Positions 5,942 to 28,803 of a DNA stretch of 43,034 bases are shown here, piece by piece. Source of the DNA: a virus. The position numbers and the translations under genes were made by a program. Below the pieces are notes generated by a model. The model ran no database searches, was not told the origin of the DNA, and saw nothing but the letters and a program-made list of their open reading frames with translations. The stretch covers positions 1-43,034 of the IMG/VR virus record IMGVR_UViG_3300027734_004125, one strand, 5' to 3'. How positions within the stretch are numbered: the first letter of the stretch is position 1; each line of letters starts with the position of its first letter.

Positions 5942-6778
5942 TTATAAGATACAATCTACTATTGTGTATGATGATTTTAGGTATTCTTCTGTACAAGCAA
6001 GACCAGGATTTCCATTAGTATATCCACCTACAACAAGTCCAGCACCTCGTGACCCTGCACCTGATAAATATCCTCTTGCAGTTATCATTGCTCCACCTGA
6101 TGACCACGATGTTCCATTATACTCTTCTGTGCATGATGATACAGATACAGTTGTAACGCCTCCTGCTACAAATGCTTCATTTTGTGTACCTGCTCCTGAT
6201 ACTACATATCTGCTATTTATTAATGCACCTCCTGCTGACCAAGATGTACCATTATATTCTTCCGTGCATGATAAAGGGCCAGCACCTCCTGCTACAAGTC
6301 CTGCATTTTGTGTACCTGCTCCTGCTAAAGCATGTCTTGCCGTTGCTAACGCACCCCCTGTTGACCATGATGTGCCATTGTATTCTTCTGTACAAGCTAA
6401 GCTTACATTTGTAAAACCTCCTGCTACAAGTCCTTCATTTTGTGTACCTGCCCCAGGAAGGTATAATCTTGCATTTATAAGTGCACCCCCTACAGCCCAT
6501 GATGTTCCATTATATTCTTCTGTACAACTAACTCCAACAACTGTATTTTGATACCCACCTGCGGCTAATGCCTCATTTTGTGTCCCCATAACACCAATAC
6601 CATATCTTGCCGTTATCAATGCACCCCCTGCTGACCAAGTACCTGCTCCACTCCTACTACAATAAGATGCCATTGGTTTTAGGTTAGTTGTATCAAACCA
6701 TAAACAAACAGTATTTACACATATCGTTGCAGGTCTATTTGCAACACCTACTATTTCACTACTCTGTAATTTAGCCAT
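5942..6778 (-). CDS. Five-repeat beta-propeller fibre/adhesin-like protein (array copy 1)
   Basis: The 278-residue product starts MAKLQSSEIVGVANRPATIC and CLWFDTTN, the N-terminal module shared by five adjacent genes. It then has five repeats of about 46 residues (WSxGG, ITAR, GTQNxGLVAGG, [10 protein letters not shown]). Its neighbours have six, so this copy appears to have lost one blade. It is the last of the array in transcription order. The C-terminal tail (CTEEYLKSSYTIVDCIL) is of the same type as in the others. The propeller fold is inferred from repeat length and motif. A role in receptor binding is inferred from the context. Confidence 0.85.
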   Translation of the reverse strand: MAKLQSSEIVGVANRPATICVNTVCLWFDTTNLKPMASYCSRSGAGTWSAGGALITARYGIGVMGTQNEALAAGGYQNTVVGVSCTEEYNGTSWAVGGALINARLYLPGAGTQNEGLVAGGFTNVSLACTEEYNGTSWSTGGALATARHALAGAGTQNAGLVAGGAGPLSCTEEYNGTSWSAGGALINSRYVVSGAGTQNEAFVAGGVTTVSVSSCTEEYNGTSWSSGGAMITARGYLSGAGSRGAGLVVGGYTNGNPGLACTEEYLKSSYTIVDCIL

Positions 6779-6815
6779 GTTATTTTATTATATATTCAAA
6801 TATCTATAAATTGAT

Positions 6816-7775
6816 TTATGATAAAATACGATCTATTATTGCTAACGCTTTAGTGTATTCTTCAGTGCAGGAAACTGAAGCACTTACACACCCACCAAAT
6901 GCTAATCCTAATCCTTGTGTACCTGTACCACCTATTAATCTTCTTGCTGTTATTAATGTATTAGCAGTTGACCATGATGTCCCATTGTATTCTTCAGTAA
7001 TAGCCGAATTAAAATTTGAACTATTTTTGCCTCCAAATACTAACCCAGAATTTTGCGATCCTGCACCTCCTAATTGACTTCTTACTGTTATCATATTACC
7101 ACCAGCTGACCAAGAGGTGCCATTATATTCTTCTGTACATGCGCAGGCCCCAGCAGAATTGTATCCACCTGCTGCAAGTCCTACATTCTGCGTTCCAACA
7201 CCTCTTAAATAAGCTCTTGCTGTTATCATTGTACATCCTGTTGACCATGATGTCCCATCGTATTCTTCTGTACAAGTATTAGTATTACTAATAAAGTCTA
7301 CAGATCCTGCAGCTGCAAGAGCTTCATTTTGTGTTCCTGCTCCTGCTGAATATCCTTTTCTAATTATTACATTACCACCAGTTGCCCAAGTAGTACCATC
7401 ATATTCTTCAGTAGCATTAGTATTACCACCACTAATTAAAAGTCCTGCATTCTGTGTTCCTGCTCCTGCCGCACTTACTCTTGTTGTTATCATATTACCA
7501 CCAGCTGACCAAGAGGTGCCATTATATTCTTCTGTATTAAGATTAATATTAGAACCCATAGCAAGACCTTCATTCTGAGTTCCTGCGCCTGCTAATCCTA
7601 TATTTACTGAAATCATTGCACTTCCTGTTGACCAAACTCCTGCTCCGTCATACCCACAATAGGAAATAACCGTTTTTAAATTAGTTGTATCAAACCAAAT
7701 GCACATCGTATTTGAACATATTGTTGCTGGTCTATTTGCAACTCCAACAACTTCACTACTCTGTAATTTTGCCAT
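6816..7775 (-). CDS. Six-repeat beta-propeller fibre/adhesin-like protein (array copy 2)
   Basis: The 319-residue paralogue has the MAKLQSSEVVGVANRPATIC module, the MCIWFDTTN linker and six repeats. Its repeats are the most diverged of the array: blades carry GGNMITTR, GGNVIIRK and STANTLITAR in place of the usual GGALITAR. Variation concentrates in loops between GLAxGG and CTEEY, where a ligand-binding surface would be expected. It ends CTEEYTKALAIIDRILS. The downstream paralogue starts 37 bp after its stop, without a recognisable ribosome site beyond an A-rich leader. Confidence 0.85.
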   Translation of the reverse strand: MAKLQSSEVVGVANRPATICSNTMCIWFDTTNLKTVISYCGYDGAGVWSTGSAMISVNIGLAGAGTQNEGLAMGSNINLNTEEYNGTSWSAGGNMITTRVSAAGAGTQNAGLLISGGNTNATEEYDGTTWATGGNVIIRKGYSAGAGTQNEALAAAGSVDFISNTNTCTEEYDGTSWSTGCTMITARAYLRGVGTQNVGLAAGGYNSAGACACTEEYNGTSWSAGGNMITVRSQLGGAGSQNSGLVFGGKNSSNFNSAITEEYNGTSWSTANTLITARRLIGGTGTQGLGLAFGGCVSASVSCTEEYTKALAIIDRILS

Positions 7776-7785
7776 GTTTTATATT

Positions 7786-8745
7786 CTATTTAATACAGTC
7801 TATTATTGCTAATGGTTTAGTGTATTCTTCGGTACAAGATAAATTTGCAACATTATAACCTCCTGCTACAAGTCCTGCGGCCTGTGACCCTGCTCCTGCT
7901 AATTGGTATCTTCCAACTGATAATGCACCCCCTGCTGCCCAAGATGTGCCATTATATTCTTCTGTACAAGTTACAATTACATCTGTATAACCTCCTGCAA
8001 CAAAGGCTTCATTTTGCGTTCCTGCTCCTGCTAAAGTATATCTTGCTGTTATCATTGCACCCCCTGCTGCCCAAGATGTGCCATTATATTCTTCTGTGCA
8101 TGATACTTGTACATTTGTTAAACCTCCCATTACAAGTCCTACGTTCTGTGTACCTGCTCCTGCTAAATTTCTTCTTGTAGTTATTAGTCCACCTCCTGCT
8201 GACCATGATGTTCCATTATATTCTTCAGTGCAAGATAAATTTACACTTGTAAAACCTCCTGCTACAAATGCCTCATTCTGAGTTCCTGCTCCTTCTAATA
8301 ATCTTCTTGCTGTTATCATTGCACCCCCTGCTGCCCAAGATGTGCCATTATATTCTTCTGTGCACGAACAAACTCCACCGCTACCCCCTCCTGCTACAAG
8401 TCCTTCATTCTGTGAACCCGCTCCTGCTAATTGATATCTTCCTGTTGCTAATGCCCCTCCTGCTGACCATGATGTACCATTGTATTCTTCTGTACATGAT
8501 ACAGCTGTATTTACTAATGCACCTCCTGCAACAAGTCCTTCATTTTGTGTACCTACCCCTGCTAAAGCATACATTGCGGTTATCATTGCACCCCCTGCTG
8601 ACCAAGTGCCTGCTCCACCATACCCACAATACGAAAAAACCATTTTAGTATTAGTTGTATCAAACCACATACAAACACTATTTGAACATATTGTTGCTGG
8701 CCTATTTGCAACTCCTACTATTTCTGTACTTTGTAATTTAGCCAT
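7786..8745 (-). CDS. Six-repeat beta-propeller fibre/adhesin-like protein (array copy 3)
   Basis: The 319-residue paralogue has the MAKLQSTEIVGVANRPATIC module, MCMWFDTTN linker and six highly regular repeats. A 60-bp block inside it is repeated exactly at 8041-8100 and 8305-8364, so blades have been copied within the gene. Its first 122 bp of coding sequence are identical to those of the next gene upstream (9578-9699). It ends CTEEYTKPLAIIDCIK. Copy 2 starts 10 bp after its stop. Confidence 0.85.
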   Translation of the reverse strand: MAKLQSTEIVGVANRPATICSNSVCMWFDTTNTKMVFSYCGYGGAGTWSAGGAMITAMYALAGVGTQNEGLVAGGALVNTAVSCTEEYNGTSWSAGGALATGRYQLAGAGSQNEGLVAGGGSGGVCSCTEEYNGTSWAAGGAMITARRLLEGAGTQNEAFVAGGFTSVNLSCTEEYNGTSWSAGGGLITTRRNLAGAGTQNVGLVMGGLTNVQVSCTEEYNGTSWAAGGAMITARYTLAGAGTQNEAFVAGGYTDVIVTCTEEYNGTSWAAGGALSVGRYQLAGAGSQAAGLVAGGYNVANLSCTEEYTKPLAIIDCIK

Positions 8746-9699
8746 AAGTTATATTTTTAATTAAATACTAATATCTACATTAGCTAATTTAATGTATTCT
8801 TCAGTGCATGTTACAGTTGTATTTGAAAACCCACCAGCTACAAGACTAGAAAACTGTGATCCTGAGCCTGCTAATCCCATTCGTGCAGTTATTAATGATC
8901 CACCTTCTGACCATGATGTACCATTATACTCTTCAGTACATGATAATGATGTATTTAAACGACCTCCTGTAGCAAGACCTAAGTTTTGTGTGCCTGCTCC
9001 AGCTAACGAATACCTTGCAGTGCCTAATGCATTACTGGCTGACCAGCTTGTACCATTATATTCTTCAGTGCACGCTAGACTACTTGCAACAAAGCCGCCC
9101 ATCACAAGACCTACATTCTGAGTTCCAGCTCCAGCTAACCAAGCCCTTGCAGTACCTAATGCATTACTGGCTGACCAACTTACACCATTATATTCCTCGG
9201 TGCATCCAGTTCCGCCTATACCGCCTACTGCAAATGCTTCATTTTGTGTGCCTGCGCTTGCAAGACCTCTTCTTGCTGTTATCATAACTCCGCCAGCAGT
9301 CCAAGTAGCGCCATCATATTCCTCAGTACATGATAGAGAAGGCCCTCCCATAGTAAGTCCTGCATTCTGAGTGCCTGCTGCACCTGCACCATGTCTTGCA
9401 TTTAGTAATGCACCACCAGCAGACCACGATGCACCATTGTATTCTTCAGTATTTGATATATTTGTAATAAAAAAGCCGCCTGCTACAAATGATTCATTTT
9501 GTGTTCCTGCACCAGCTAAACATTCTCTAGCAGTACTTAAAGCACCACCTGCTGACCATATACCAGCACCACTTAAACCACAATACGAAAAAACCATTTT
9601 AGTATTAGTTGTATCAAACCACATACAAACACTATTTGAACATATTGTTGCTGGCCTATTTGCAACTCCTACTATTTCTGTACTTTGTAATTTAGCCAT
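8624..9699. repeat. Pair of exact 122-bp direct repeats at the 5' ends of two adjacent propeller genes
   Basis: Bases 8624-8745 and 9578-9699 appear identical over 122 bp. They cover the start codon, the MAKLQSTEIV module and the linker up to SYCG. Identity stops abruptly inside the first blade. The repeats lie in the same orientation 954 bp apart, one gene length, so recombination between them could delete or duplicate a whole propeller gene. Confidence 0.8.
8761..9699 (-). CDS. Six-repeat beta-propeller fibre/adhesin-like protein (array copy 4)
   Basis: The 312-residue paralogue shares an identical 5' end with copy 3 and then diverges within the first blade. Six repeats are present. Two of them carry ASNALGTAR instead of AGGALITAR, so neighbouring blades were copied together within this gene. 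It ends CTEEYIKLANVDISI. The downstream copy starts 15 bp after its stop. Its function is inferred as for the rest of the array. Confidence 0.85.
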   Translation of the reverse strand: MAKLQSTEIVGVANRPATICSNSVCMWFDTTNTKMVFSYCGLSGAGIWSAGGALSTARECLAGAGTQNESFVAGGFFITNISNTEEYNGASWSAGGALLNARHGAGAAGTQNAGLTMGGPSLSCTEEYDGATWTAGGVMITARRGLASAGTQNEAFAVGGIGGTGCTEEYNGVSWSASNALGTARAWLAGAGTQNVGLVMGGFVASSLACTEEYNGTSWSASNALGTARYSLAGAGTQNLGLATGGRLNTSLSCTEEYNGTSWSEGGSLITARMGLAGSGSQFSSLVAGGFSNTTVTCTEEYIKLANVDISI

Positions 9700-9714
9700 T
9701 TACTTTATCTTATT

Positions 9715-10689
9715 TTATAATATTATCTTATCTATTATCGCCAGTGCTGCGCTATACTCTTCAGTACATCTTATATATGAATTATTTCCACCTGCAAATG
9801 CTAATCCATTTGTTATGTCGCCAGCACTACCTAAGCACCCTCTAGCACAGGATAGAACATTGCCAGATGACCAGCTGGCCCCATTGTATTCTTCTGTTGC
9901 TGTAGTAACAGCAGTAGTACACCCGCCAGTAACAAAAGCTGCATTTTGTGTACCGCCGCCTGCTAATTGACGTCTTGCTGTTGTCATTACACCGCCTGTT
10001 GACCAAGATGTTCCATTATATTCTTCTGTACATGACGCAACTGCAGCTATAAAACCACCCATTGCTAATGTTTCATTCTGCGTTCCTGTTCCTGCTAGCG
10101 TTTGTCTACCTGAACTCATTGTACCTCCAGATGACCAATTTGCCCCATCATATTCATCGGTGGTCGCTGAACAAAAATTACCAAGATCATCTTGACCGCC
10201 CATTGCTAATCCAGCATTTTGGGTTCCGGACGCTGCTAAATTTACTTTACAAAAATTTATCATTGCACCTCCAGCTGACCAACTTGCACCGTTATATTCT
10301 TCAGTAAAATTAACAGGACTTGTTGTTCGACCGGCAGCGACAAATGCTTCATTCTGTGAACCGCCGCCTGCTAATCTATATCTTGCGGTTGCTAATGTAC
10401 CGCCTGTTGCCCAACTTGCACCATTATATTCTTCTGATACTCCTGTTCTTCCTGCTATTGTATTACCACCAGCCGCAAATGCTGCATTTTGAGTCCCAAG
10501 ACCTGCTAATTCACGTCTTCCTGTTATTATGGCACCACCTGCTGACCATACTGATGCTCCGCCATACCCACAATAGGAAATGACTGTTCTTAAATTAGTC
10601 GTGTCAAACCAAATGCACATCGTATTTGAACATATTGTTGCTGGCCTATTTTCAACACCTACTATTTCTGTGCTTTGTAATTTTGACAT
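9715..10689 (-). CDS. Six-repeat beta-propeller fibre/adhesin-like protein (array copy 5)
   Basis: The 324-residue product is first in the array in transcription order. It begins MSKLQSTEIVGVENRPATIC, has the MCIWFDTTN linker and six repeats, and ends CTEEYSAALAIIDKIIL. Its blades are more diverged than those of copies 1 and 3, with longer loops (for example MGGQDDLGNFCSATTDEYDG). It starts ten bases after the sulfotransferase stop, so fibre and modification genes share one transcript in this stretch. Confidence 0.85.
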   Translation of the reverse strand: MSKLQSTEIVGVENRPATICSNTMCIWFDTTNLRTVISYCGYGGASVWSAGGAIITGRRELAGLGTQNAAFAAGGNTIAGRTGVSEEYNGASWATGGTLATARYRLAGGGSQNEAFVAAGRTTSPVNFTEEYNGASWSAGGAMINFCKVNLAASGTQNAGLAMGGQDDLGNFCSATTDEYDGANWSSGGTMSSGRQTLAGTGTQNETLAMGGFIAAVASCTEEYNGTSWSTGGVMTTARRQLAGGGTQNAAFVTGGCTTAVTTATEEYNGASWSSGNVLSCARGCLGSAGDITNGLAFAGGNNSYIRCTEEYSAALAIIDKIIL

Positions 10690-10698
10690 ATTTCATCT

Positions 10699-11517
10699 TT
10701 ATTTATACCCAAAGAAATCATAATACCATTTATAATTCTCTTTAATTAAATCTATTGTATGCATTCCTAATATTTCTTTTGAATCATTCGGTAGCATTTG
10801 TAAAGATGGTCTTATCACATGATCTCCATATATTCCATGTATTGCATCATTCTCAGTTGTTATTTGGTTTATATGTTGAAAATTGTGTTTAAATTCATCT
10901 AACTCTAAATATTGATATATACTTTTCATTACATGATTAGGATTGATACATAAATCTTCATATCTAATAAATAGAAAGTTAGAAGCTGTGCCATCTAATA
11001 ATGTCTGATATAATTTTTCAAGTGAATAACCTAAAGGGTGCGTTTGTGCCCATAATTCAACTCTTTTATGAGTTGTTGTTCCTTTCATTTTTATGTTATC
11101 CATAGTTCCATCATCTTTATCTGGATTCATCCTAAATTTCTTCTCCATTGAAGCAAAGATTGATGGTAAATCCCTAACCATATATAATACTTTTGGTTTT
11201 TCTACAATATGTGCTAATAAATTATAGTAAAATCCCCAAACTCTATTTTTATCTAGATAATATGGTTTTGTTGTTTGTGACCGTACATAACCTTCTATTC
11301 CATGTGAACAAAACTTATAAAAGCCTTCTTTCCACAATTCAACATCGCCAGCTTTTGATTCATAATTTTGATTATATCCTATTCGTGTGCCTAACATCAA
11401 ATCTATAAGACCTGATGTTGGTGTAACATAGAAATCTGGGTTTTGTCCCAGCAAATTTTGAAGTAATGTGCTACCGCTTCTAGGTAGTGTTGAATTAAAA
11501 AATATTTTCTGTTTCAT
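10699..11517 (-). CDS. PAPS-dependent sulfotransferase family protein
   Basis: The 272-residue protein carries the 5'-phosphosulfate-binding loop LPRSGSTLL (residues 11-19) at its N-terminus. It also has the 3'-phosphate-site pattern RDLPSIFAS (115-123), and FIRYEDLCINP further on is typical of the family. These enzymes move sulfate from PAPS to hydroxyls of sugars, proteins or small molecules. The acceptor cannot be read from sequence. Its start overlaps the stop of the upstream oxygenase by four bases (ATGA), and the propeller array follows directly. This suggests sulfation of a virion or surface glycan. Confidence 0.8.
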   Translation of the reverse strand: MKQKIFFNSTLPRSGSTLLQNLLGQNPDFYVTPTSGLIDLMLGTRIGYNQNYESKAGDVELWKEGFYKFCSHGIEGYVRSQTTKPYYLDKNRVWGFYYNLLAHIVEKPKVLYMVRDLPSIFASMEKKFRMNPDKDDGTMDNIKMKGTTTHKRVELWAQTHPLGYSLEKLYQTLLDGTASNFLFIRYEDLCINPNHVMKSIYQYLELDEFKHNFQHINQITTENDAIHGIYGDHVIRPSLQMLPNDSKEILGMHTIDLIKENYKWYYDFFGYK

Positions 11518-12152
11518 ACGTATCTACCAAAAATTATTTCAGAAATTGTTTCCTTATCACCTAATGTCCCTTTTGTTAAAGCATTGACCCCAAGCGCCTT
11601 TCTTGTCCTATTTGTTTTATTAGGTGGCACTCCATGTGTTAACCATGATGGAAAAATAATAAAATCATTTTTCTTAGGCATGTAGTAAATTTCTTCTTGT
11701 GAAAAGACGTGATTTTGATAATCATCATGTAATGATGGCTCAAAATATGACCTATTAAATGATTTTACTTCTTTTGAAAAACATATCGCTGCATCATCTT
11801 CATGTGCATCATAATAAAATACTCCTGCTAATAAAGTATTAGGATGTGTATGCGCCTTATGAATTTGGTTTGGATTTTTATAAGTTAACCAAGATTGAGC
11901 AAATGCTAATTCTTTAAATCTGTATCTCATAATATTTGTTGCAAAATCTTCAAAACAAGACATTAAGAATTTATTTAATTCGTTGCATACAGGATTATCT
12001 AAAATATAACTATTACTTGAAATCATTCCATAGCCACTATTTGTATCTAACATCTCACAACTATCAAAATAATTAATTACATTTTTTAAATCTTTATCGT
12101 AATTTGCAACATATAAAGGTGTTGGAAACAGTGAAAATACTTGTGGGTTCAT
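11514..12152 (-). CDS. 2OG-Fe(II) oxygenase (PF13759-like)
   Basis: I place the start at ATG 12152, giving 212 residues (MNPQVFSLFPTPLYVA). A TTG at 12173 would add seven residues but reaches into the upstream gene, whereas the ATG lies one base beyond that gene's TAG. FPTPLY near the N-terminus is characteristic of this family. The iron and 2-oxoglutarate ligands are visible as H101-T-H103, H173 (FPSWLTHGVPPN) and an arginine at 182-184. It is second of three oxygenases by position, and translationally coupled to the sulfotransferase by ATGA. The substrate is unknown. Protein or sugar hydroxylation is plausible. Confidence 0.75.
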   Translation of the reverse strand: MNPQVFSLFPTPLYVANYDKDLKNVINYFDSCEMLDTNSGYGMISSNSYILDNPVCNELNKFLMSCFEDFATNIMRYRFKELAFAQSWLTYKNPNQIHKAHTHPNTLLAGVFYYDAHEDDAAICFSKEVKSFNRSYFEPSLHDDYQNHVFSQEEIYYMPKKNDFIIFPSWLTHGVPPNKTNRTRKALGVNALTKGTLGDKETISEIIFGRYV

Positions 12153-12153
12153 A

Positions 12154-12750
12154 CTATTTATTATTAGGAACAAAATTAAATGCTATTGATATTCTTTCGC
12201 CTTGTGAATCATTAGATTCAACATGATGTTTAACCCATGATGGAAATATATAAAAGAAAGACTCTAAAGGTTTTTTTACAGCTACAAAAGAATTTGTTTT
12301 TGTACTAATTCTCTCCACGTCTGATTTTAAAAAATATGGTGCAGTGTCTCCTCTATGTAAAACCAAATCACCCATATTGTCAAATGGAACTGATACATAA
12401 TATACACCAGACAATATACTGTTTTGGTGGTCGTGTAGTAAATTATAAGAACCAGGTTCATTAATATTAACCCAAAAATTCCCAAACTTTAAATTATCGA
12501 TACCTGTATGCTTATAACAATTTTGATTAACAAATATTTCAAGATTATTAAATAGTTTTGTTAAATCAACAGGTATTGGTTGTATGATCTCACTACTGTG
12601 CCAGCCTCCTCTATTTGATATAGTAGTGCCTTTTGTATTATCTCTTAACCACAAGCAGTAATCTTTTATTTCTTGATTATTTACATTTGTCACCTCTGAT
12701 TCCCATACTGGAGTTGAAAACCAATTTTCTTCGTGTATTGAAAATTCCAT
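12154..12750 (-). CDS. 2OG-Fe(II) oxygenase (PF13759-like)
   Basis: The 198-residue product has the same layout as its downstream neighbour: an N-terminal WFSTPVWES segment, H106-D-H108 followed by SGVYYVSVP, H175 in FPSWVKHHVESN and R186 in ERISIAFNF. These match the Fe(II)-binding triad and 2-oxoglutarate-binding arginine of the double-stranded beta-helix fold. The pair look like diverged paralogues. Enzymes of this type are frequent in marine phages, but their substrates are mostly unassigned. It lies five bases after the third oxygenase gene. Confidence 0.78.
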   Translation of the reverse strand: MEFSIHEENWFSTPVWESEVTNVNNQEIKDYCLWLRDNTKGTTISNRGGWHSSEIIQPIPVDLTKLFNNLEIFVNQNCYKHTGIDNLKFGNFWVNINEPGSYNLLHDHQNSILSGVYYVSVPFDNMGDLVLHRGDTAPYFLKSDVERISTKTNSFVAVKKPLESFFYIFPSWVKHHVESNDSQGERISIAFNFVPNNK

Positions 12751-12755
12751 AAATT

Positions 12756-13337
12756 TTATACTTTATTGTGAGTAAACCACCCTGTTAAAATATATTTTGT
12801 CTGAGTTGGTGATGGAACACCTCTATGCAAATGTGTCCAATCTGACGGCCAAATAACTAATTTGCCTCTTTCAGGTTCTTCAAAATGTTGCTGATAGAAA
12901 AACTCAGTTTCTCCTCTATCTGTTAAAGTATTTAAATATATCATCCATACTAACAATCTATCTGAATGTTTTACACCTGCTCTTTCGCAATGCCAACCAT
13001 AAAAACCTTCATTTGGTTCATACTTTTGCATATTAAAGTAAGTATATAAGTCTATAGAATCCATTTTAGTCATTGCAGTAGAATGTCTATTTAAATAGTC
13101 TAAAACTCCATTTTGAACTACTGTAATTACTTCATTTAATAACAAACCCCATCCTTCTTTTTTTAAGAAGGATGGGTCAAATGTTATGTCTGTTGACTTT
13201 TTATCGCTATCTGAAGATATTCCACTAGGACCATATAAAACACCTGGCTGTTTTAATTCAGATGATTCAAAATTTTTAATCAGCTGATGGCATGTATTTG
13301 CTGATAAAGCATTTTTTTTTGTATAAATAAAATTCAT
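12756..13337 (-). CDS. Prolyl-4-hydroxylase-type 2OG-Fe(II) oxygenase
   Basis: The 193-residue product contains the P4H-like core: YGWHCERAG with H116-x-E118 as the first ligands, a GETEFFY strand, WPSDWTHLHRGVP with H171 in the canonical H-x-G-x-P setting, and K181 (TKYILTGW) as the 2-oxoglutarate anchor. Glu replaces the usual Asp in the HxD motif. P4H relatives hydroxylate prolines in collagen-like and other proteins. Two collagen-like fibre genes lie downstream in this window, although most of their prolines are in the X position. Target assignment is inference. Confidence 0.8.
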   Translation of the reverse strand: MNFIYTKKNALSANTCHQLIKNFESSELKQPGVLYGPSGISSDSDKKSTDITFDPSFLKKEGWGLLLNEVITVVQNGVLDYLNRHSTAMTKMDSIDLYTYFNMQKYEPNEGFYGWHCERAGVKHSDRLLVWMIYLNTLTDRGETEFFYQQHFEEPERGKLVIWPSDWTHLHRGVPSPTQTKYILTGWFTHNKV

Positions 13338-19999: not shown

Positions 20000-20329
20000 T
20001 TAAAATTGTCCGTAAGTAAAATATTGATATAAATAATAAGCAAATTTATAACCAGTAAATGCACCAAGTGCAGAAGGCAATGGAAATATAATCATTCTTC
20101 CTAGAGAAGTTGTATATTTAGGACGATTGACAATAGTTCCCATAAAATAATAATAAGAAATATAACCTAATATAACTGCAATATCTAATCGAGTTGAAAT
20201 AAAAACAACTAAAATGGCTCCTAAAAAACCAAAAATAAAATTATCTCTAACTCCTTCCCAAATTTCAATGCGTGTTGCATCTTTATATTCTTTAATTATT
20301 TTATTAAAATGTTTATTTGATTTTATCAT
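20000..20329 (-). CDS. Small membrane protein, unknown
   Basis: I place the start at ATG 20329 (MIKSNKHFNKIIKEYKD), giving 109 residues. A TTG at 20362 would add eleven more but overlaps the kinase gene by 50 bases instead of 17. A charged N-terminal 28 residues precedes a hydrophobic hairpin (NFIFGFLGAILVVFIS and AVILGYISYYYFMG), then a Pro/Gly-rich segment and another hydrophobic helix (AFTGYKFAYYLYQYF). Two to three membrane spans are expected. No family is recognised. Confidence 0.55.
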   Translation of the reverse strand: MIKSNKHFNKIIKEYKDATRIEIWEGVRDNFIFGFLGAILVVFISTRLDIAVILGYISYYYFMGTIVNRPKYTTSLGRMIIFPLPSALGAFTGYKFAYYLYQYFTYGQF

Positions 20330-21092
20330 AAATGTCTTTAATATTATTAATTTTATTAACAACTCCTCTTTGTTTTACAGCGTTAGCTGCTATTAAATTG
20401 CCAAATTTTATTGATTTTTCAGGATCTTTACTTTTAACAAACATGTGAGAAAATCCAGCTAAAAAAGAATCGCCTGCGCCTACTACATCCATTACTTCAA
20501 CTTCTTCTCCATGATACATTTTATTTCGCCAAGATGCACCATATTTTCCACATGTGATTATAGTCTTATCAATAAAATTATTCTTATTAACATGCATTGG
20601 ATTTTCCCATTCATTTTTATTCATTTTAATAAAATCAAAAGATGTGGCCCAAGTATTTTCAATATTTTTCTTTGTATCTATGATAGAAATATTTGAAGTT
20701 TTGGCTAGAATATCAAGATCACCAGGATGTAAAAATCCTTTGTCATAATCTGAGATAACAAGAAGATCTGATGATTTTATCTGTTCAATAAGCGTATCGT
20801 TAATTTTAATTCTTTTAACTTTTTCTTCTAAATCCACTCTAAGCATAATATAGTTTGAAACTTCATCAACATATCTAGTCTTTTTAATTATTTGAGATTC
20901 TGGTTGATGAAATTTAAATATTGTAATGTCTCCTAAACTTAGGAGATTTTCAACAACGTTAGCAGCCATGCCTAAATTTTCTTTTTTTTGTTTTTCTACG
21001 AAAACAGGTGTAGGTGCTTCGGGGTTGAGTCTTGTACAATTGCCATAGATAAATTCATCTATACATTTTTCTCCTATGACTGTTATTTTCAT
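20313..21092 (-). CDS. HldE-like PfkB carbohydrate kinase
   Basis: The 259-residue protein begins with a sugar-kinase strand (MKITVIGEKCIDEFIYG) and RLNPEAPTPVF (21-31), the phrase typical of D-glycero-D-manno-heptose-7-phosphate kinases (HldE/RfaE N-terminal domain). VISDYDKGFL and the PfkB signature DVVGAGDSFLAGF (base D208) follow. It is shorter than the usual 310-320-residue domain and lacks the HldE cytidylyl/adenylyl-transferase half. If it acts on heptose, it would make heptose-1,7-bisphosphate for ADP-heptose. The nearby KdsB and heptosyltransferase-like genes fit. It overlaps the upstream gene by four bases. Confidence 0.78.
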   Translation of the reverse strand: MKITVIGEKCIDEFIYGNCTRLNPEAPTPVFVEKQKKENLGMAANVVENLLSLGDITIFKFHQPESQIIKKTRYVDEVSNYIMLRVDLEEKVKRIKINDTLIEQIKSSDLLVISDYDKGFLHPGDLDILAKTSNISIIDTKKNIENTWATSFDFIKMNKNEWENPMHVNKNNFIDKTIITCGKYGASWRNKMYHGEEVEVMDVVGAGDSFLAGFSHMFVKSKDPEKSIKFGNLIAANAVKQRGVVNKINNIKDIYDKIK

Positions 21093-22160: not shown

Positions 22161-22847
22161 TTATTTTTTAGAAATTTTTAAAGCGTTTGATTGACGGCCT
22201 TTCATCCAGTGATCTATACTGTGATTAGTAATACGCAAATGACGATAACCTGCTTTGTGCACACTTGCACCAAATGATGAATCTAAATGCATGATATGAG
22301 GTAAATTTTCATTTTTCATTATTTCAAATACAGCAGGATTCCAAATACTAAAAAGAAAAGGCACTCCACATTCACCAGGTTCTCTAACAAGCCCAGTTGA
22401 GAAATTTTCTCTAGTTGGTATATCAGAAAACCAATGCTTATGTGTAGGATAGCAGTTTTCACCAGCCCATGTATATATAGGACTTACAGATCCTACATTT
22501 CCTGCAGCTTCTTGATATACTCTTAACATTGCTTGAAACGTTGAAGTTGATGGCATTGCATCAGTTTCTATAATATGAATTAAATCAGGATTCCATTCTT
22601 TTATATAGTCATATCCAGTTAAAATTGATAAACGTAAACTTCTAATACCTGATGAACTTAAAATATGAAAATTTTCAAGTTTGCTTAATCGATTAAAATC
22701 AGAACGATAAATACTATCTGAATGATCATCCACTATTATAATTCTATAGTCAGAAACTGATAAATGGTATTCTTTAGAAATCCATTGTGCAATTCTTTTA
22801 ACTCCTTCTAAAAAATTATAAGTTGGAATAATACAGGCTAATTTCAT
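22161..22847 (-). CDS. GT2 family glycosyltransferase
   Basis: The 228-residue GT-A protein opens with MKLACIIPTYNFLEG, then IIIVDDHSDS, and has the acidic metal-site motif IIETDAMPS (94-99) after a DYIKEWNPDLIH segment. GECGVPFLFSIWNPAVFE is typical of acceptor-side GT2 sequence. It is translationally coupled to kdsB by an ATGA overlap, which suggests a linked role in surface-glycan building. Its exact sugar is unknown. Confidence 0.82.
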   Translation of the reverse strand: MKLACIIPTYNFLEGVKRIAQWISKEYHLSVSDYRIIIVDDHSDSIYRSDFNRLSKLENFHILSSSGIRSLRLSILTGYDYIKEWNPDLIHIIETDAMPSTSTFQAMLRVYQEAAGNVGSVSPIYTWAGENCYPTHKHWFSDIPTRENFSTGLVREPGECGVPFLFSIWNPAVFEIMKNENLPHIMHLDSSFGASVHKAGYRHLRITNHSIDHWMKGRQSNALKISKK

Positions 22848-23530
22848 TTTTGAGATAATATAGATAGCACTTTATTTATATCTTCTGGTACATCTACAGC
22901 TTGATATAAATGAGAAGTATACCAAGAATAGATAGGAATATTAGATTCTAGCCACGTTAATTGTTCTAAATTTTCTTTAAGAGAATTAGGAGAAGGCTTT
23001 AATTTTTTTATTTGTAAAAGAGTTTTTCTATCAAAAGCATAAATGCCAATATGCTTATAAGAACTTTCTTTAGTTCTAGAAAAAAGAAAACATTGGTTAT
23101 AGTCACTATGAGCCTTACAGAGAACCTTAACTACATTACTATTATGTATATCATCACCTGATATATCTGTCATTAGAGTATGAATGCCTGACATTTCTTT
23201 ACACTTCTGTATTAATGTATTTAAATCAGCTGGGCTTGCTAACGGTTCATCGCCTTGTAAATTAATATAAACTCTAGCATTTATTTTTTTTGCTACTTCA
23301 ATAAGTCTTTCAGTGCCATTAGAACAATCACAGGTCAGTATTGAGTGCCCTTTGCATTCTTCATATATTTTTTCACTATCAGTAGCAACTAAAACTAATT
23401 CAGCAGAACTTAATAATCCCTTTTCTAAAACACGTCTTATCATACTTTTTCCCGCTATTATCGCTAAAGGTTTATTAGGAAATCTTTGAGATTCTAGCCT
23501 TGATGGAATTACAATACAACTGTTTATCAT
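22844..23530 (-). CDS. kdsB: 3-deoxy-manno-octulosonate cytidylyltransferase (CMP-Kdo synthetase)
   Basis: The 228-residue protein has the KdsB hallmarks: CIVIPSRLESQRFPNKPL (CTP-binding loop), LVATDSEKI, NGTERLIEVA, INLQGDEPL with D94 for Mg, KHIGIYAFDRKTLL, LEQLTWLES and AVDVPEDI near the C-terminus. The enzyme makes CMP-Kdo from CTP and Kdo for lipopolysaccharide. It is about 20 residues shorter than typical cellular copies but keeps the catalytic elements. Related 8-amino-Kdo or neuraminate cytidylyltransferases are alternatives. It overlaps both neighbours by four bases. Confidence 0.88.
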   Translation of the reverse strand: MINSCIVIPSRLESQRFPNKPLAIIAGKSMIRRVLEKGLLSSAELVLVATDSEKIYEECKGHSILTCDCSNGTERLIEVAKKINARVYINLQGDEPLASPADLNTLIQKCKEMSGIHTLMTDISGDDIHNSNVVKVLCKAHSDYNQCFLFSRTKESSYKHIGIYAFDRKTLLQIKKLKPSPNSLKENLEQLTWLESNIPIYSWYTSHLYQAVDVPEDINKVLSILSQK

Positions 23531-25845
23531 AAAATTGACATTATTTTATTAAATACTTGTTCTGGTGTAATTGTTTTAGTACATTCATGATGTTTATCAG
23601 TACCTTTATTTACAGGACACCACATCCAATCGCCAGGATCGAATGGATATAAATCAGGTGAATGAAAACAACAGTGACATACATCTTTATTTTGTATTAC
23701 ATAATTATCTTTTTCATATTCGTACGCAGTTGGACCAATAATCATAATAGTTTTTTTACCTAGCCCATGTGATAGCCATGATAATCCGCTACTAAGCCCA
23801 ACGAATAATTCAGAATGATGTATAAAATTCATTATTTCTGAAAATTGCATACCTATTTTTTTAACTGATGACTTAGGTACTGGATTCCAGTGCCCTTCAA
23901 TTCCAAAACTTTCATATCTATCAATACATACTGGGGTAATATTTTCCTTCCTTAACAATTTACAAAGAATATCCCAGCCTTCTGGATAATTCCACATTTT
24001 AGCCTGTGCTGTAGAATGGGTACTAAAGCAGATATATTTACTTTGGATAGGTCTAGCACTAGGTTTAAATCTCAAATTAGGAACTTTTTTAACTAAATCT
24101 AATCCTAAATCTTGTTGAAATCCATGTTGTAATGCATCTTTAAAATGATAGTCTGAAACAATAATATCGGTAAAATCACTAGGATTAAAATTATGATCAA
24201 TAAAATCTAAATCGTATGATTTAAAAATATCAATAAAAGCTGAATTAATAGATACTGTTGGTTTTTCATTCCATTTTTCTTTCCACGCTTGACATGATTC
24301 AACAAATGCAATAGTATCTCCTAGTGCTTTGCTTCTTAACCGCAAAAGAGTTTTTTTATCTATTACTTTAATTTCACTATTTAAACTTTTTTCCCAATTT
24401 ACAATAGTTGGCCATGAATACCAATAGTCTAAAGATTTAGCTTTATCATAAAAATAAATATCAAATTCTCTTATAAGCTTTTTCGTATTATCATCAAAAT
24501 TTCCTATTAAAACAAGAATACATTTTTTTTCAATTTTAAATAATTGTAAAATATTAAGATCAAATTCATTTTCAATACTGACTCCAACTATTTTATTTTC
24601 TAGACTATTTGTTATTTCTTTAACAACAGTTGAACCATTTTTTATAATTATATTCCAATCTATCCATTCTCCTCTGTGATTTACAGAAGACCATTTTCTG
24701 GATTCTTGGCCATGATCAAAAAAGTTTTTAATTAAATTTCCTTTTTTATAAAGAATAGAAACACCCGCTCCGGGTAAACTAATTTCAGTATTAATTTTAA
24801 CATTGTCAGGCGCAAGATTAAATTTAACAATGTATGGATTATAATTTTTTTTATGTTTATGTACTAAAGGTGTATTTATATATGAATCTATCATTTTTTT
24901 AGACATATCCCAGCCTAAAGCATTTTGATAATGTTCTAATAATTTAGAAACTATTACGTTCCATGAATGCAATTCAGCATTTTCTCTAGAAAGTTTAGAT
25001 AAAATAGGATATGCATCTATTACCTGCTGTATCCCATCTATAACATTTTCTTTTTCTCTTTTTGCTAATATTAATCCAGGCATTGAAGTTTCCATACATC
25101 CTACTATTGGCATTCCAGTTGACGCAGCCTCTATTAAAGTTAAATTAGGATGTCCTGCTTCTAGATCGGATAGATGTAAGAAAATATCGTGAGATGAAAA
25201 AATATTAACAGATTCTTCTTGATTTAAATCATAAATAATATCTAAATTTTTATAATTTAATAAATCTAAATTTTGATTAAAAAAGTTTTGATTATTTTTA
25301 GGACCTGCTACAGTTATTGGCAAATCGAGTGCGTGCGCAGCTTCTATTGCATATCGAAATCCTTTTCTATCGTGTGATTGATTTTCTAGAATTCCATTAT
25401 TTGCAAGACATAAAAGTTTAGGCTTTTTAAAAGTTCTTTCTATATATGCATATTCTTCAATATTCACGCCATGTTCCAGATAAACTAATTTTGAACTATT
25501 AAAATAGTCAATTAAAAATTTAGCATGGACGAATGATATAATTGAACCTTCAATTGCTTCTAGATTCTTTTTAAAACAGTCAGAATCTTTACCAAACCAA
25601 ACTACATGGTGATCATGCATTGAGAAAATATAGGGTATTTTTCTATGTTTTAATTCTATAGCTAAATTAGCCATGTGGACATGAACGATATCATAAGTTG
25701 TATCAATATCATTTAAATATTTAATATCAACACAATAGCCCATCTTTCTAAGGACTATACTATATTCCCAAATAATTTTTTCTACAGCACCCCATCCATT
25801 AGGAGGGATTGGTAAAATACCAGGATTAATCTGAACTATTTTCAT
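23527..25845 (-). CDS. Fusion: GT4 glycosyltransferase + TibC/Aah-type O-heptosyltransferase
   Basis: The 772-residue protein joins two transferases. Residues 1-320 are GT-B/GT4-like (INPGILPIPPNGWGAVEK; HLSDLEAGHPNLTLIEA near 220-240). From about 335 it follows the layout of autotransporter O-heptosyltransferases: a beta-rich strand-loop-strand part, SKALGDTIAFVESCQAW, FSTHSTAQAKMWNYPEGW, LFVGLSSGLSWLSHGLG, and a C-terminal cysteine finger. The finger comprises DVCHCCF, GDWMWCP and ECTKTITPEQV and matches the four-Cys iron site known for TibC. Those enzymes move heptose from ADP-heptose to serines of repeat adhesins. It overlaps kdsB (ATGA) and the upstream gene by 20 bases. Family assignment is from memory of the motifs. 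Confidence 0.8.
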   Translation of the reverse strand: MKIVQINPGILPIPPNGWGAVEKIIWEYSIVLRKMGYCVDIKYLNDIDTTYDIVHVHMANLAIELKHRKIPYIFSMHDHHVVWFGKDSDCFKKNLEAIEGSIISFVHAKFLIDYFNSSKLVYLEHGVNIEEYAYIERTFKKPKLLCLANNGILENQSHDRKGFRYAIEAAHALDLPITVAGPKNNQNFFNQNLDLLNYKNLDIIYDLNQEESVNIFSSHDIFLHLSDLEAGHPNLTLIEAASTGMPIVGCMETSMPGLILAKREKENVIDGIQQVIDAYPILSKLSRENAELHSWNVIVSKLLEHYQNALGWDMSKKMIDSYINTPLVHKHKKNYNPYIVKFNLAPDNVKINTEISLPGAGVSILYKKGNLIKNFFDHGQESRKWSSVNHRGEWIDWNIIIKNGSTVVKEITNSLENKIVGVSIENEFDLNILQLFKIEKKCILVLIGNFDDNTKKLIREFDIYFYDKAKSLDYWYSWPTIVNWEKSLNSEIKVIDKKTLLRLRSKALGDTIAFVESCQAWKEKWNEKPTVSINSAFIDIFKSYDLDFIDHNFNPSDFTDIIVSDYHFKDALQHGFQQDLGLDLVKKVPNLRFKPSARPIQSKYICFSTHSTAQAKMWNYPEGWDILCKLLRKENITPVCIDRYESFGIEGHWNPVPKSSVKKIGMQFSEIMNFIHHSELFVGLSSGLSWLSHGLGKKTIMIIGPTAYEYEKDNYVIQNKDVCHCCFHSPDLYPFDPGDWMWCPVNKGTDKHHECTKTITPEQVFNKIMSIL

Positions 25846-26896
25846 TAATAATTATTGTATCTTTAGTGTTTACAAGAAATTCTCTACATAATAAAAATGT
25901 ATGAACTATTCCATTGCTTAATTTTATTTCAACTTCACAATTTTCAGTAAATTCAAAAAATTGGGATTTCCAACTTTCATTACTACTTAATTCCAGTTTT
26001 AATATGTTATCAATTTTTCCATCTTTATTAAAAAAAGTGACATGAATCCAATTATCTTCAGTTGAACCTATATTCCAGGCTACTATTGCACCTTTATCGC
26101 CTTTAATATGTAAACCATTTTCAGTATCTCGTGCTACTTTAAAAATTCCTCCATAGAAACCATTTTTAAATTTTTCATTAGTGTGATCACTAATTACATT
26201 ATTCCAAGTAGTATGTGGAAATTCTGAATTAAAACTTCCTTCTACTGTTTCTAAAATAATAACATCATCATAATTATTTTTTAAATCTTCAGCTAAAAAT
26301 TCTTCAGCTGGCAGAAATTTCCGTTTACCTGTAATTTCTACTATTCTTTTAATATAATCATTTTCATTTCTAATTTTAGTACATGTGTTTAACATCCAAT
26401 CTATATCACAATACCATAAATGATAAAAAATATGTTTATTATTTTTATCTAAATAAAAAATAGCTTTTTTATCGCCGAGAGATTGTGGTATTAATTTTAT
26501 TTTTTCTACATCATTATAATGAATTAAACTATCATATTCCATTCTATAACAATGAGTATATCCTAGAGTTTTTAAAATTTCAAAACCTCTATACATATTG
26601 GAATGAACAGATAACGAATGCTTTTGTTTATGATAAGATTCTGTTTGAATTCTAACATCGCCATTTGATGAAAAAACTGAAATGCTTGGATATTCTTCAA
26701 AATCATCAGAAAAATTCCTATTTTCTTCATCATAAAAACAATAATTTACTATTTCTAATACTTCTGGAGTAGGTTTTAAATTAGTTATAAGAAAAATTTT
26801 AAAACCCATATCTCTAACTCTAGATATGGATTCAATAAAAACTTTTTTGTTTTTATCAGTATTTAAATATGCATCTATTAAAAAAATATCTTTCAT
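25826..26896 (-). CDS. Putative GT-A-like glycosyltransferase with C-terminal beta domain
   Basis: The 356-residue protein begins MKDIFLIDAYLNTDKNKKVF and contains ILKTLGYTHCYRMEYDSLIH, where R-x-E-x-D resembles a GT-A nucleotide-sugar site. LPAEEFLAEDL and SEFPHTTWNNVISDHT follow. Residues about 245-345 form a beta-rich domain (GAIVAWNIGS, WIHVTFFNKDGK, CEVEIKLSNG) that may bind sugar. No family is certain. It sits between the GT4-FkbM fusion and the heptosyltransferase fusion and overlaps the latter. Confidence 0.5.
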   Translation of the reverse strand: MKDIFLIDAYLNTDKNKKVFIESISRVRDMGFKIFLITNLKPTPEVLEIVNYCFYDEENRNFSDDFEEYPSISVFSSNGDVRIQTESYHKQKHSLSVHSNMYRGFEILKTLGYTHCYRMEYDSLIHYNDVEKIKLIPQSLGDKKAIFYLDKNNKHIFYHLWYCDIDWMLNTCTKIRNENDYIKRIVEITGKRKFLPAEEFLAEDLKNNYDDVIILETVEGSFNSEFPHTTWNNVISDHTNEKFKNGFYGGIFKVARDTENGLHIKGDKGAIVAWNIGSTEDNWIHVTFFNKDGKIDNILKLELSSNESWKSQFFEFTENCEVEIKLSNGIVHTFLLCREFLVNTKDTIIINENSSD

Positions 26897-26901
26897 AACT
26901 A

Positions 26902-28803
26902 TTATTTATGAGCTATAATAAGCCCTTTATAATCAGCAGAAGATCCTCTAAATCGAGTATCCTCTTTTCGTATTTCTAAATGGTATCCTTCATTTTTTAA
27001 CTTTTGCAAAACTTTATCTAATTGTCCAACATTATCATGAAATTCTATTAATAAATGTTTAAATGGAAATTCAGTCATTGCATTAATAACATCATATTCA
27101 CATCCTTCAATATCTATTTTTAAAAGATCTGCTGATAACCAGCCATGTTGTTTCATAGAGTCCGCCAGTGTAACAGCTTTAATACTTATTTGGTTTTCTT
27201 TTTTATAAATAGATGAAGTAGTAGAATTATTTGGATCTATTCCTAAATAGATGTCGCCTTCTTTATCAGCAACGGCTGCTTCAATTAAAAATATATTTTC
27301 ATTATGGCTGTGAATTTTCTTAAATGCTTGAATTGCAATAGGATTAGGTTCAAAAGCAAGAATACTCGAATCTTTTCCAAATCTGTCAAGTGCCCATTGT
27401 GTAAAAAGACCAACATTCGCACCTATATCTATAATTTTATTCATTCTTTCACCAGCGAACAAATTATCATATATTTTTTTAACAAAAAATTGATCATAAT
27501 TAACAAAAATAGGTTCAAAATCATCTAAACCTGGTATTTTTCTTTTTACTTGAGACTCTTTAAAAGAAATTGTTTCTTTTTCTATTATGTGTGTTTTATC
27601 TTCTGACCAAACTTCTACTAAGAAGCCTGTAAATGTAGGTTCATTATAAAAATCATAATGTTCTATTGGAATAGGTCTACACCACCAAGTCTGTTCAGGT
27701 GTACTAAAGTCAACATCAAAAGAATAGATAGTTGCTTCTGAATCAATATCTTTAACTGATATTATTTTTTTACCAATTGCCTGCTCTGACCAGATTTCTA
27801 ATTTGTTATCTTCTTTGTTAAAAAATAATTTAATCATATTTTCTTTTTGTTTTAGTTTTAAAATTTGTTGAATAAGAACATAATTATCATAGTGTGTTGA
27901 TTTCATATAGGTCACCTTAGAATTTTCTGGATACATTCCTAAATAGACTGGAGTATCTTTTAAAAACAGAGGTATTTTATATTTAATAGTTTCTTTTATA
28001 ACAAGTGGATTTGTTTCTTTATCATCTATTAATTCAATAGATGGAAATATAACCATATCTGCAACTGAATAAAATTGCTGTACATCTTTATGTTCACCCC
28101 AAAATTTACAATTTTTTGGTAAATTATCTAAGATAGGTTTCCAATAATATGAATAACTATCAGCAGTATTTCCTACGAAATGGAATTGAACTGGATCATT
28201 AATCATTAATTTTGCAATTTCTACTGTTTCTTTTTGATTTTTTCTAGGTGAAAAAATACCAAATTGAAAGATATGCTTTTTATTAGGATCTAAATTAAGT
28301 TTTTTAATTAAAAAATATTTATCAATTTTATCTAGTTCTGGCACATCATATTGAATTAATTCAGATGGTATTTGAAGAGATTGCATCATTCTTACTTGAA
28401 AAGGAGAAACTAATAAAAATTTATCAGGTAGAAATTGCTTAGACTGTAAAGGATAAGAAGAATCATGACAGGTTTCTATAATTTTCCAAGTTCTATTTTC
28501 AACATAAATCTCAGATAGATAATCAGGATTAATAACTTGTTCCGAAGGCTCAGTAAAATGAATAACGTCAGGATTAAAATCCTTAATTTTTTGTACGGCT
28601 TTAATAGAACTTTTTTCTGCAGAGAATAGTTCTATCCCAGTTAGATCCAATACTCTTTGTCTTATGGCATTTAAAACATATTCTGTTCTCATTTCTATTA
28701 ATAGAACAGTATTCTGTTCTCTATTTAATAGTTCAATACTTCTTCTTACATATTCAGGCATACCGCCTGTTGAAAGATTAGGTGTAATAAAAACAATTTT
28801 CAT
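26902..28803 (-). CDS. Fusion: GT4-like glycosyltransferase + FkbM methyltransferase
   Basis: The 633-residue protein has an N-terminal GT-B half (MKIVFITPNLSTGGMPEYVR; FQFGIFSPRKNQKE near 180; ADMVIFPSIELIDDKETNP as the donor-side motif). A beta-rich linker follows at about 330-430 (WWCRPIPIEHYDFY). Residues 454-633 are an FkbM methyltransferase with KIIDIGANVGLF, LAFEPNP and LLKIDIEGCEYD. Such a fusion could add and then methylate a sugar. Six bases separate it from the downstream gene. It has no signal peptide. Confidence 0.82.
   Translation of the reverse strand: MKIVFITPNLSTGGMPEYVRRSIELLNREQNTVLLIEMRTEYVLNAIRQRVLDLTGIELFSAEKSSIKAVQKIKDFNPDVIHFTEPSEQVINPDYLSEIYVENRTWKIIETCHDSSYPLQSKQFLPDKFLLVSPFQVRMMQSLQIPSELIQYDVPELDKIDKYFLIKKLNLDPNKKHIFQFGIFSPRKNQKETVEIAKLMINDPVQFHFVGNTADSYSYYWKPILDNLPKNCKFWGEHKDVQQFYSVADMVIFPSIELIDDKETNPLVIKETIKYKIPLFLKDTPVYLGMYPENSKVTYMKSTHYDNYVLIQQILKLKQKENMIKLFFNKEDNKLEIWSEQAIGKKIISVKDIDSEATIYSFDVDFSTPEQTWWCRPIPIEHYDFYNEPTFTGFLVEVWSEDKTHIIEKETISFKESQVKRKIPGLDDFEPIFVNYDQFFVKKIYDNLFAGERMNKIIDIGANVGLFTQWALDRFGKDSSILAFEPNPIAIQAFKKIHSHNENIFLIEAAVADKEGDIYLGIDPNNSTTSSIYKKENQISIKAVTLADSMKQHGWLSADLLKIDIEGCEYDVINAMTEFPFKHLLIEFHDNVGQLDKVLQKLKNEGYHLEIRKEDTRFRGSSADYKGLIIAHK

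Follow-up and report, generated by a model that had tools for sequence, protein, structure and literature searches.

A phage gene joining a GT4 glycosyltransferase to a TibC-like iron-finger glycosyltransferase

What would an enzyme resembling TibC, the heptosyltransferase of enterotoxigenic E. coli, modify when it is encoded by a phage? The question is raised by the IMG/VR virus record IMGVR_UViG_3300027734_004125, of which positions 1 to 43,034 were analyzed as one stretch of DNA (43,034 nucleotides, hereafter the window). A preliminary description, made from the letters alone, had read the gene at 23527-25845 as a TibC/Aah-type O-heptosyltransferase fused to a GT4 domain, with which the phage would O-heptosylate its own fibres or take over the glycosylation of host adhesins. 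We show by sequence and predicted fold that the gene, P0001, encodes a GT4 enzyme followed by a TibC-like GT-B enzyme, and we then ask how widespread such genes are, which sugar donor and acceptor the enzyme might use, and which role fits best.

A two-domain glycosyltransferase with the TibC fold

P0001 is an open reading frame (ORF) of 772 amino acids (aa) that runs from ATG to stop on the minus strand (25845-23527), the plus strand over 23527-25845 being full of stops. The gene placed here by the preliminary description is therefore real and open, and its strand is the minus. A near-copy of the window is found in a second viral contig, L002, with 99.99% identity over 21,011 bp. The gene and its parts are as follows.

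23527..25845, minus strand: GT4 plus TibC-like iron-finger glycosyltransferase P0001, 772 aa (profile, PDB and fold matches)
24907..25845, minus strand: N-terminal GT4 glycosyltransferase domain, residues 1-313 (PF00534, fold matches)
24577..24834, minus strand: predicted eight-stranded region, counterpart of the TibC N-terminal beta-barrel, residues 338-423 (DSSP of the AlphaFold2 model, alignment to 4RB4)
24385..24576, minus strand: extra alpha/beta insert, residues about 424-487 (alignment A5, AlphaFold2 model)
23530..24351, minus strand: TibC-like catalytic domain, residues 499-772, with D510, T612, K616 and W690 (family profile against TibC; PMC4358343, in excerpt)
23581..23679, minus strand: iron-finger region, C723, C726, C743 and C755, corresponding to TibC C339, C342, C358 and C370 (alignment with TibC)

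The C-terminal half matched the NCBIfam model TIGR04414 (hepto_Aah_TibC) with an E-value of 3e-49, residues 486-771 aligning to positions 72-374 of the 374 in the profile. The profile search suggested by the preliminary description thus gave a clear match, at a score (167.9 bits) under the curated cut-off of 200 bits. When five phage relatives were scored singly against the same model, L004, L005, L006 and L007 were above the cut-off and L003 reached 196.1 bits. A phmmer search of PDB with the window protein returned TibC as its sole match (4RB4 and 4RAP, E 1.3e-27 and 5.5e-27, residues 588-766). A profile made from 55 family rows, comprising 54 viral loci and L087, a contig from a metagenome-assembled genome (MAG), retrieved TibC with E 4.7e-92 and 312 bits over chain residues 27-386, against 31 bits for WaaC-type chains. 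The N-terminal half matched PF00534 at 27.1 bits, above the gathering cut-off of 26.4.

Both assignments were supported by the predicted fold. An AlphaFold2 model built from 25 rows (the window, viral contigs and L087) had a mean predicted local distance difference test (pLDDT) score of 83.7 and a predicted template modelling score of 0.65, with pLDDT values of 56-78 in the iron-finger stretch and 59-79 in residues 341-400, which form part of the barrel. Foldseek ranked TibC first with this model (E 8.7e-20). By VIA-align, model residues 367-772 superposed on TibC with Z 26.5 (root-mean-square deviation (rmsd) 3.2 over 301 residues) and residues 348-772 on 4RB4 chain B residues 23-387 with Z 25.8 (rmsd 4.1 over 313 residues); model residues 1-313 matched GT4 enzymes with Z up to 27.4. 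In TibC the beta-barrel spans residues 1-97 (PMC4358343, in excerpt), and we read the predicted strands at residues 338-423 as a barrel of this type. Among the GT4-fused rows of alignment A5, the insert at 424-487 was shared only with L003 and L004. The fusion of a TibC/Aah-type enzyme to a GT4 domain in a phage, as first proposed, is thereby confirmed at the level of profiles and modelled fold.

The functional residues described for TibC are largely retained. As reported in the excerpted text of PMC4358343, D110 is the candidate catalytic base, T226 and K230 bind the beta-phosphate, W305 binds heptose, R286 contacts adenine, and C339, C342, C358 and C370 are the iron ligands. The equivalents of D110, T226, K230 and W305 are all kept in the window gene (D510, T612, K616, W690), and the C-terminal four-cysteine finger noticed earlier holds up: C723, C726, C743 and C755 align with the iron ligands and form a putative metal site. 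Across the family, D110, K230, W305 and the four cysteines are present in 55/55 rows and T226 in 54/55. The position governing heptose stereoselectivity, Pro300 in TibC and Ser294 in AAH (the AIDA-I heptosyltransferase; PMC4358343, in excerpt), is Ser685 in the window gene, which in this respect is like AAH, as read from the published residue and not from an alignment with AAH itself. The beta-hairpin thumb is near full length (23 residues vs 24 in TibC) and lacks the hydrophobic tip, F265/V266 of TibC being Gly/His in the alignment. Among the 55 rows, 12 have a thumb of at least 23 residues, 5 one of 17-22 and 38 one of no more than 16, so that it is shortened in 43.

Set beside TibC (4RAP, 4RB4; TIGR04414/BAHT), whose family is characterized by an ADP-heptose donor, a Ser acceptor and a dodecameric assembly, the window gene shares the catalytic domain, the predicted barrel, the Asp, the Thr/Lys/Trp set and the four Cys. 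It differs from TibC, and equally from AAH, in its GT4 fusion, its insert at 424-487, its thumb tip, Ile671 in the place of Arg286, its score under the family cut-off, and the absence of an SLS-repeat partner among the findings in its record, which is a fragment. The last three of these points were each tested, and on them we rejected the stricter identification of P0001 as a bona fide autotransporter heptosyltransferase.

Related genes in phages and bacteria

TibC-like iron-finger glycosyltransferases, mostly fused to GT4, occur in large environmental phages. A search of IMG/VR with the alignment as query yielded at least 600 stretches that fitted the pattern; 527 of 600 candidates were confirmed, so that at least 527 IMG/VR stretches encode a relative, and the best 80 of these 527 were kept. 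Matches among deposited phage records were found in 4 of 50,697, and four different queries returned the identical four: two records both of 735 kb, a 636-kb record, and Microcystis phage Mel-JY01, the single isolate found with a TibC-like gene. The Mel-JY01 protein is longer than the window protein (1226 aa) and contains GT4 and a TibC-like part scoring 317 bits, above the TIGR04414 cut-off; its gene is labelled 'methyltransferase FkbM' in its record, and Pfam at E 0.01 detected no FkbM domain in the protein. A structure library lists a further phage protein with such a module, A0A6J5SVC1 from an uncultured Caudovirales phage, as 'Glycosyltransferase Aah/TibC' (a listed structure match).

To count family features, the 92 loci with a main TibC-like ORF were reduced to 61 by removing near-copies at 90% identity, the window copies L001 and L002 having been excluded beforehand, and L087-L093 (7/61, from genome contigs) were then set aside to leave 54 distinct viral loci. 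All 54 viral members match TIGR04414 at E 0.001 or better. The fusion partner at the same threshold is PF00534 in 37, an FkbM methyltransferase domain in 5 and a pyruvyl transferase in 2.

Two further arrangements were observed in the relatives. Paired TibC-like genes adjoin in one phage in L012 (7728-10879), L013 (7722-10882), L024 (3136-6025), L059 (3288-6177) and L085 (3094-5993). A distant second protein of 312-318 aa, scoring 25-44 bits against the family profile, is encoded upstream of the TibC-like gene in L022, L032, L033, L035, L039, L040, L057, L058, L060, L064, L069, L076 and L078, and in near copies.

Bacterial contamination was rejected as a source of these records, since 12 of 41 records, and none of 14 control genomes, had a T4-type portal; the fragmentary window is outside the 12. 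The contig L087 (JAAEPJ010000383.1), binned into a bacterial MAG, has genes for tail sheath, tube and hub close to its TibC-like gene and looks like a phage contig.

Bacterial relatives were also collected. In the phylum of Commensalibacter, 8 of 398 genomes match at 1e-20, the chosen centre included, and the 11 listed genes in those 8 genomes occupy open frames spanning 408-569 residues, which leaves no room for a GT4 fusion of the window gene's kind. The 24 bacterial rows obtained include refetched copies and were recounted as 16 distinct genes, 15 of which have Arg at TibC position 286. We built a tree of 73 rows with a midpoint root; L095-L101 were omitted as copies, although L095 is in fact an additional gene from the same genome, and L102 was kept although it duplicates L091. 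A single group of 15 (100/99), in which one gene appears twice, holds the TibC-type bacterial rows and joins phage rows L049, L051, L056 and L080 (98/91), and bacterial rows L090, L092 and L093 are placed elsewhere, among phage rows. These three are bacterial TibC-like genes with a short thumb. Given the midpoint root, uneven sampling and some long rows, the tree makes a phage origin of bacterial TibC only a possibility.

Neighbouring genes, sugar donor and acceptor

The genes around P0001 bear on both substrates. Those of interest are listed here from upstream to downstream on the minus strand.

26902..28803, minus strand: GT4-FkbM methyltransferase fusion (L003 and L004 have a member of the same cluster upstream)
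25826..26896, minus strand: 356-aa upstream gene, family unassigned, no Pfam or NCBIfam match (61% identical counterpart upstream in L003)
22844..23530, minus strand: KdsB-like cytidylyltransferase (NF003952 188.3 bits, cut-off 193; TIGR00466 kdsB 110.1, cut-off 155.2)
22161..22847, minus strand: GT2-like glycosyltransferase (PF00535 19.8 bits, under the cut-off of 23.3)
20313..21092, minus strand: HldE-kinase-like PfkB kinase (TIGR02198 113.4 bits, cut-off 345; phrog_8133 221.5 bits)
10699..13337, minus strand: sulfotransferase and three 2-oxoglutarate (2OG)-Fe(II) oxygenases, putative fibre-decoration island (collinear, 80-92% identity in L016 and L026)
5942..10689, minus strand: five tandem kelch/propeller-like repeat ORFs, candidate acceptors (repeat class by eye; relatives in L016 and L026)
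5038..5913, minus strand: GT9-like gene, 291 aa, assigned to GT9 by eye and without a Pfam match (84-90% identity with the genes meeting TibC-like genes in L016 and L026)
4763-3351, minus strand: collagen/S74 fibre, candidate acceptor (PF01391 121.6 bits, PF13884 59.2 bits)
3349-2363, minus strand: sixth kelch-like ORF, candidate acceptor (by eye)

The HldE-like kinase (21092-20313) and kdsB (23530-22844) named in the preliminary description are indeed nearby, both scoring under their model cut-offs, and the start of the KdsB-like gene overlaps the stop of P0001. Elsewhere in the window, 29342-31387 encodes a Clp-type ATPase (phrog_4871, 784 bits).

ADP-heptose is doubtful as the donor. Of the ADP-heptose pathway genes searched, a set that did not extend to GmhB, the window has only the divergent HldE-like kinase; neither the adenylyltransferase TIGR02199 nor GmhA TIGR00441 has a match at E 0.001 in this fragment. 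We therefore rejected a complete phage ADP-heptose pathway for the window, and the doubt about the donor comes from these missing matches together with the replacement of the adenine-contact Arg by Ile in P0001. Among relatives, gmhA was found in 3/41 records (one above cut-off) and rfaE domain II in 12/41 (none above cut-off). The rfaE domain I kinase was found at E 1e-10 in 9/42, again with none above cut-off, and the nine include the window as well as its near copy; the 42-record list used for the kinase differs partly from the 41-record list. A kinase gene adjoins an adenylyltransferase gene in five records (G002, G004, G005, G029 and G031; in this gene G004 and G005 are almost identical), so that a putative split HldE-like module is present in some relatives and not in the window. 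One gmhA above its curated cut-off (251.5 bits) lies at 430182-430640 of W03 (LR756504.1), the 636-kb phage with a TibC-like gene.

The acceptor repeat of the autotransporter systems was sought with TIGR04415 (SLS), which was above cut-off in 0/65 phage records (0/41 and 0/24), the fragmentary window included. The single weak match among the 41 phage records was in G028 (E 0.4); a bacterium carrying the enzyme gave 67 TIGR04415 matches at E 1 or better.

Candidate acceptors within the window are the fibre-like genes. The Ser/Thr-rich collagen and propeller fibre genes pointed out earlier are present at 17.6-26.0% Ser+Thr: the six kelch-like ORFs contain 17.6-21.9% and the collagen fibre 26.0%, compared with 10.4-12.1% in six non-fibre window ORFs, P0001 included. 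The kelch/propeller-like ORFs were named by eye, and the single one tested against Pfam gave no match. A collinear block of the GT9-like gene, kelch-like fibres, the sulfotransferase and the three 2OG oxygenases is common to the window, L016 and L026, with identities of 80-92% for the GT9-like, sulfotransferase and oxygenase genes and 57-69% for the kelch-like ORFs. The end of this block is met in L016 and L026 by a TibC-like gene that falls in another clade of the tree than the window gene. The three oxygenases (11514-13337) adjoin the sulfotransferase, in the block with the kelch-like fibres and 7-10 kb from the collagen fibre; hydroxylation of fibre residues ahead of glycosylation is a possibility.

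Proposed role and alternatives

Positions of TibC-like genes relative to virion genes were examined by labelling each flanking gene cluster through one representative typed with PHROGs. Among the 54 viral loci, sheath was nearby in 12, tube in 10, hub in 9, terminase in 7 and fibre in 10; 23 had any of these and 18 had any except fibre. The window is one of the 23 solely through a fibre gene 18.8 kb away, which leaves 22/54 within 10 kb. In all 12 sheath loci, which are spread over several tree clades, the sheath gene lies downstream on the same strand, 0-7 ORFs off.

Since environmental phages commonly carry related genes, frequently close to tail or fibre genes, decoration of the phage's own virion is probable. 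The reading we favour, with moderate confidence, is that P0001 encodes a bifunctional protein glycosyltransferase whose targets are virion proteins of the phage itself, likeliest the Ser/Thr-rich fibre or tail proteins. Virion proteins would be glycosylated in the host cytoplasm during assembly. The TibC-like half would transfer the first sugar, heptose or a related one, from a nucleotide sugar to Ser/Thr, and the GT4 half together with neighbouring glycosyltransferases, methyltransferase and sulfotransferase would extend and cap the glycan. Since the Arg that contacts adenine is absent, the donor may carry a nucleotide other than ADP. Of the preliminary proposal that the phage O-heptosylates its own fibres, modification of its own fibre or tail proteins thus remains favoured, unproven as it is, and heptose supplied as ADP-heptose becomes doubtful.

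Several observations weigh against this proposal. First, we infer both acceptor and donor, and the adenine contact R286 of TibC, Ile671 here, is kept as Arg in only 10/55 family rows and absent in 45/55. Second, the fibre genes of the window are 13-20 kb from P0001 and do not adjoin it. Third, none of the counted clusters is present in 31/54 loci, many contigs being short, and the neighbourhood counts stand without a random-gene control. Fourth, in L016 and L026 the TibC-like gene and the shared block converge tail to tail from opposite strands, so that the gene is not in one operon with the block. Lastly, recurrence beside g18 may reflect an insertion or cargo hot spot, a possible reading because cyanomyoviruses carry insertions in a hypervariable region between g15 and g18 (PMC2984593, in excerpt).

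Of the alternatives, the one that survives best is that the enzyme, acting like the WaaC/WaaF heptosyltransferases, helps to make or modify a glycolipid or polysaccharide of the host or of phage making, such as the lipopolysaccharide (LPS) core or capsule, and so blocks superinfection. We regard this as possible, if rather unlikely. The window gene matches Glyco_transf_9 at 20.4 bits (cut-off 22) and LPS heptosyltransferase I, TIGR02193, at 17.7 bits (cut-off 185.3), PF01075 matches 47/54 viral members and TIGR02193 39/54 at E 0.001, and kdsB-like and HldE-like genes lie nearby. Published excerpts also report LPS genes in the T4-like phage P-SSM2 (PMC2984593) and heptosyltransferases I-III as LPS genes in viral metagenomes (PMC10747093, PMC8066274). 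However, the window gene scores 167.9 bits with TIGR04414 vs 17.7 with the LPS model, TIGR04414 is matched by every member, the four iron-finger Cys and the barrel are features of TibC, and WaaC-type chains fall far behind TibC in the family profile search. On these profile scores we keep an LPS heptosyltransferase as a rival only.

A generic exopolysaccharide-type glycosyltransferase, carried as cargo in a plastic region and with a specificity unrelated to heptose or virion proteins, appears unlikely. It would account for the loss of the adenine-contact Arg in most rows, for the variety of fused domains, and for the many other glycosyltransferases of the window, and a cargo region between g15 and g18 is known (PMC2984593, in excerpt). 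Invariance of the Asp, Lys, Trp and iron-finger Cys in 55 rows argues against it, as does recurrence of the gene near structural genes in several clades.

O-glycosylation of a host surface protein, such as an autotransporter-like adhesin, which would hide a receptor or change the attachment of infected cells, we consider improbable. TibC and AAH do act in this way (PMC4358343, in excerpt), but TIGR04415 was above cut-off in none of the 65 records, a search that covered phages and not their hosts, and in it the suggested takeover of host adhesin glycosylation found no support. Glycosylation of modified phage DNA bases against restriction is very improbable: phage glycosyltransferases that modify DNA exist (PMC12619734, in excerpt), but the nearest relatives of known activity act on protein Ser (PMC4358343, in excerpt).

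Decoration of the phage's own virion proteins has precedents, and the claim that this would be a new protein-modification system was overstated, because virion glycans are reported in mycobacteriophages and A0A6J5SVC1 already bears the name Aah/TibC. In excerpts, mycobacteriophages are described with glycans on capsid and tail tube (PMC12619734) and with putative phage-encoded glycosyltransferases (PMC11256854); the likeness lies in glycans on virion proteins and is drawn from these descriptions, without sequence comparison. No paper on a phage TibC-type enzyme was found in the literature searched, which mostly excluded subscription papers and preprints, and the excerpts of PMC9529941 and PMC8498110 yielded nothing on phage TibC. 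A bolder version, which we think has only a small chance of being correct, is that a widespread, almost uncultured phage iron-finger family builds a multi-sugar virion glycan with a donor other than ADP-heptose, and that bacterial TibC/AAH is one offshoot of it.

If the favoured reading is true, large environmental phages would glycosylate their tails or fibres by TibC-type chemistry, with consequences for virion adsorption, recognition and stability, and autotransporter glycosylation would be only one part of a much broader TibC family. With the adenine contact missing, the identity of the donor becomes a question that can be tested directly, and the cultured phage Mel-JY01 offers one system for doing so.

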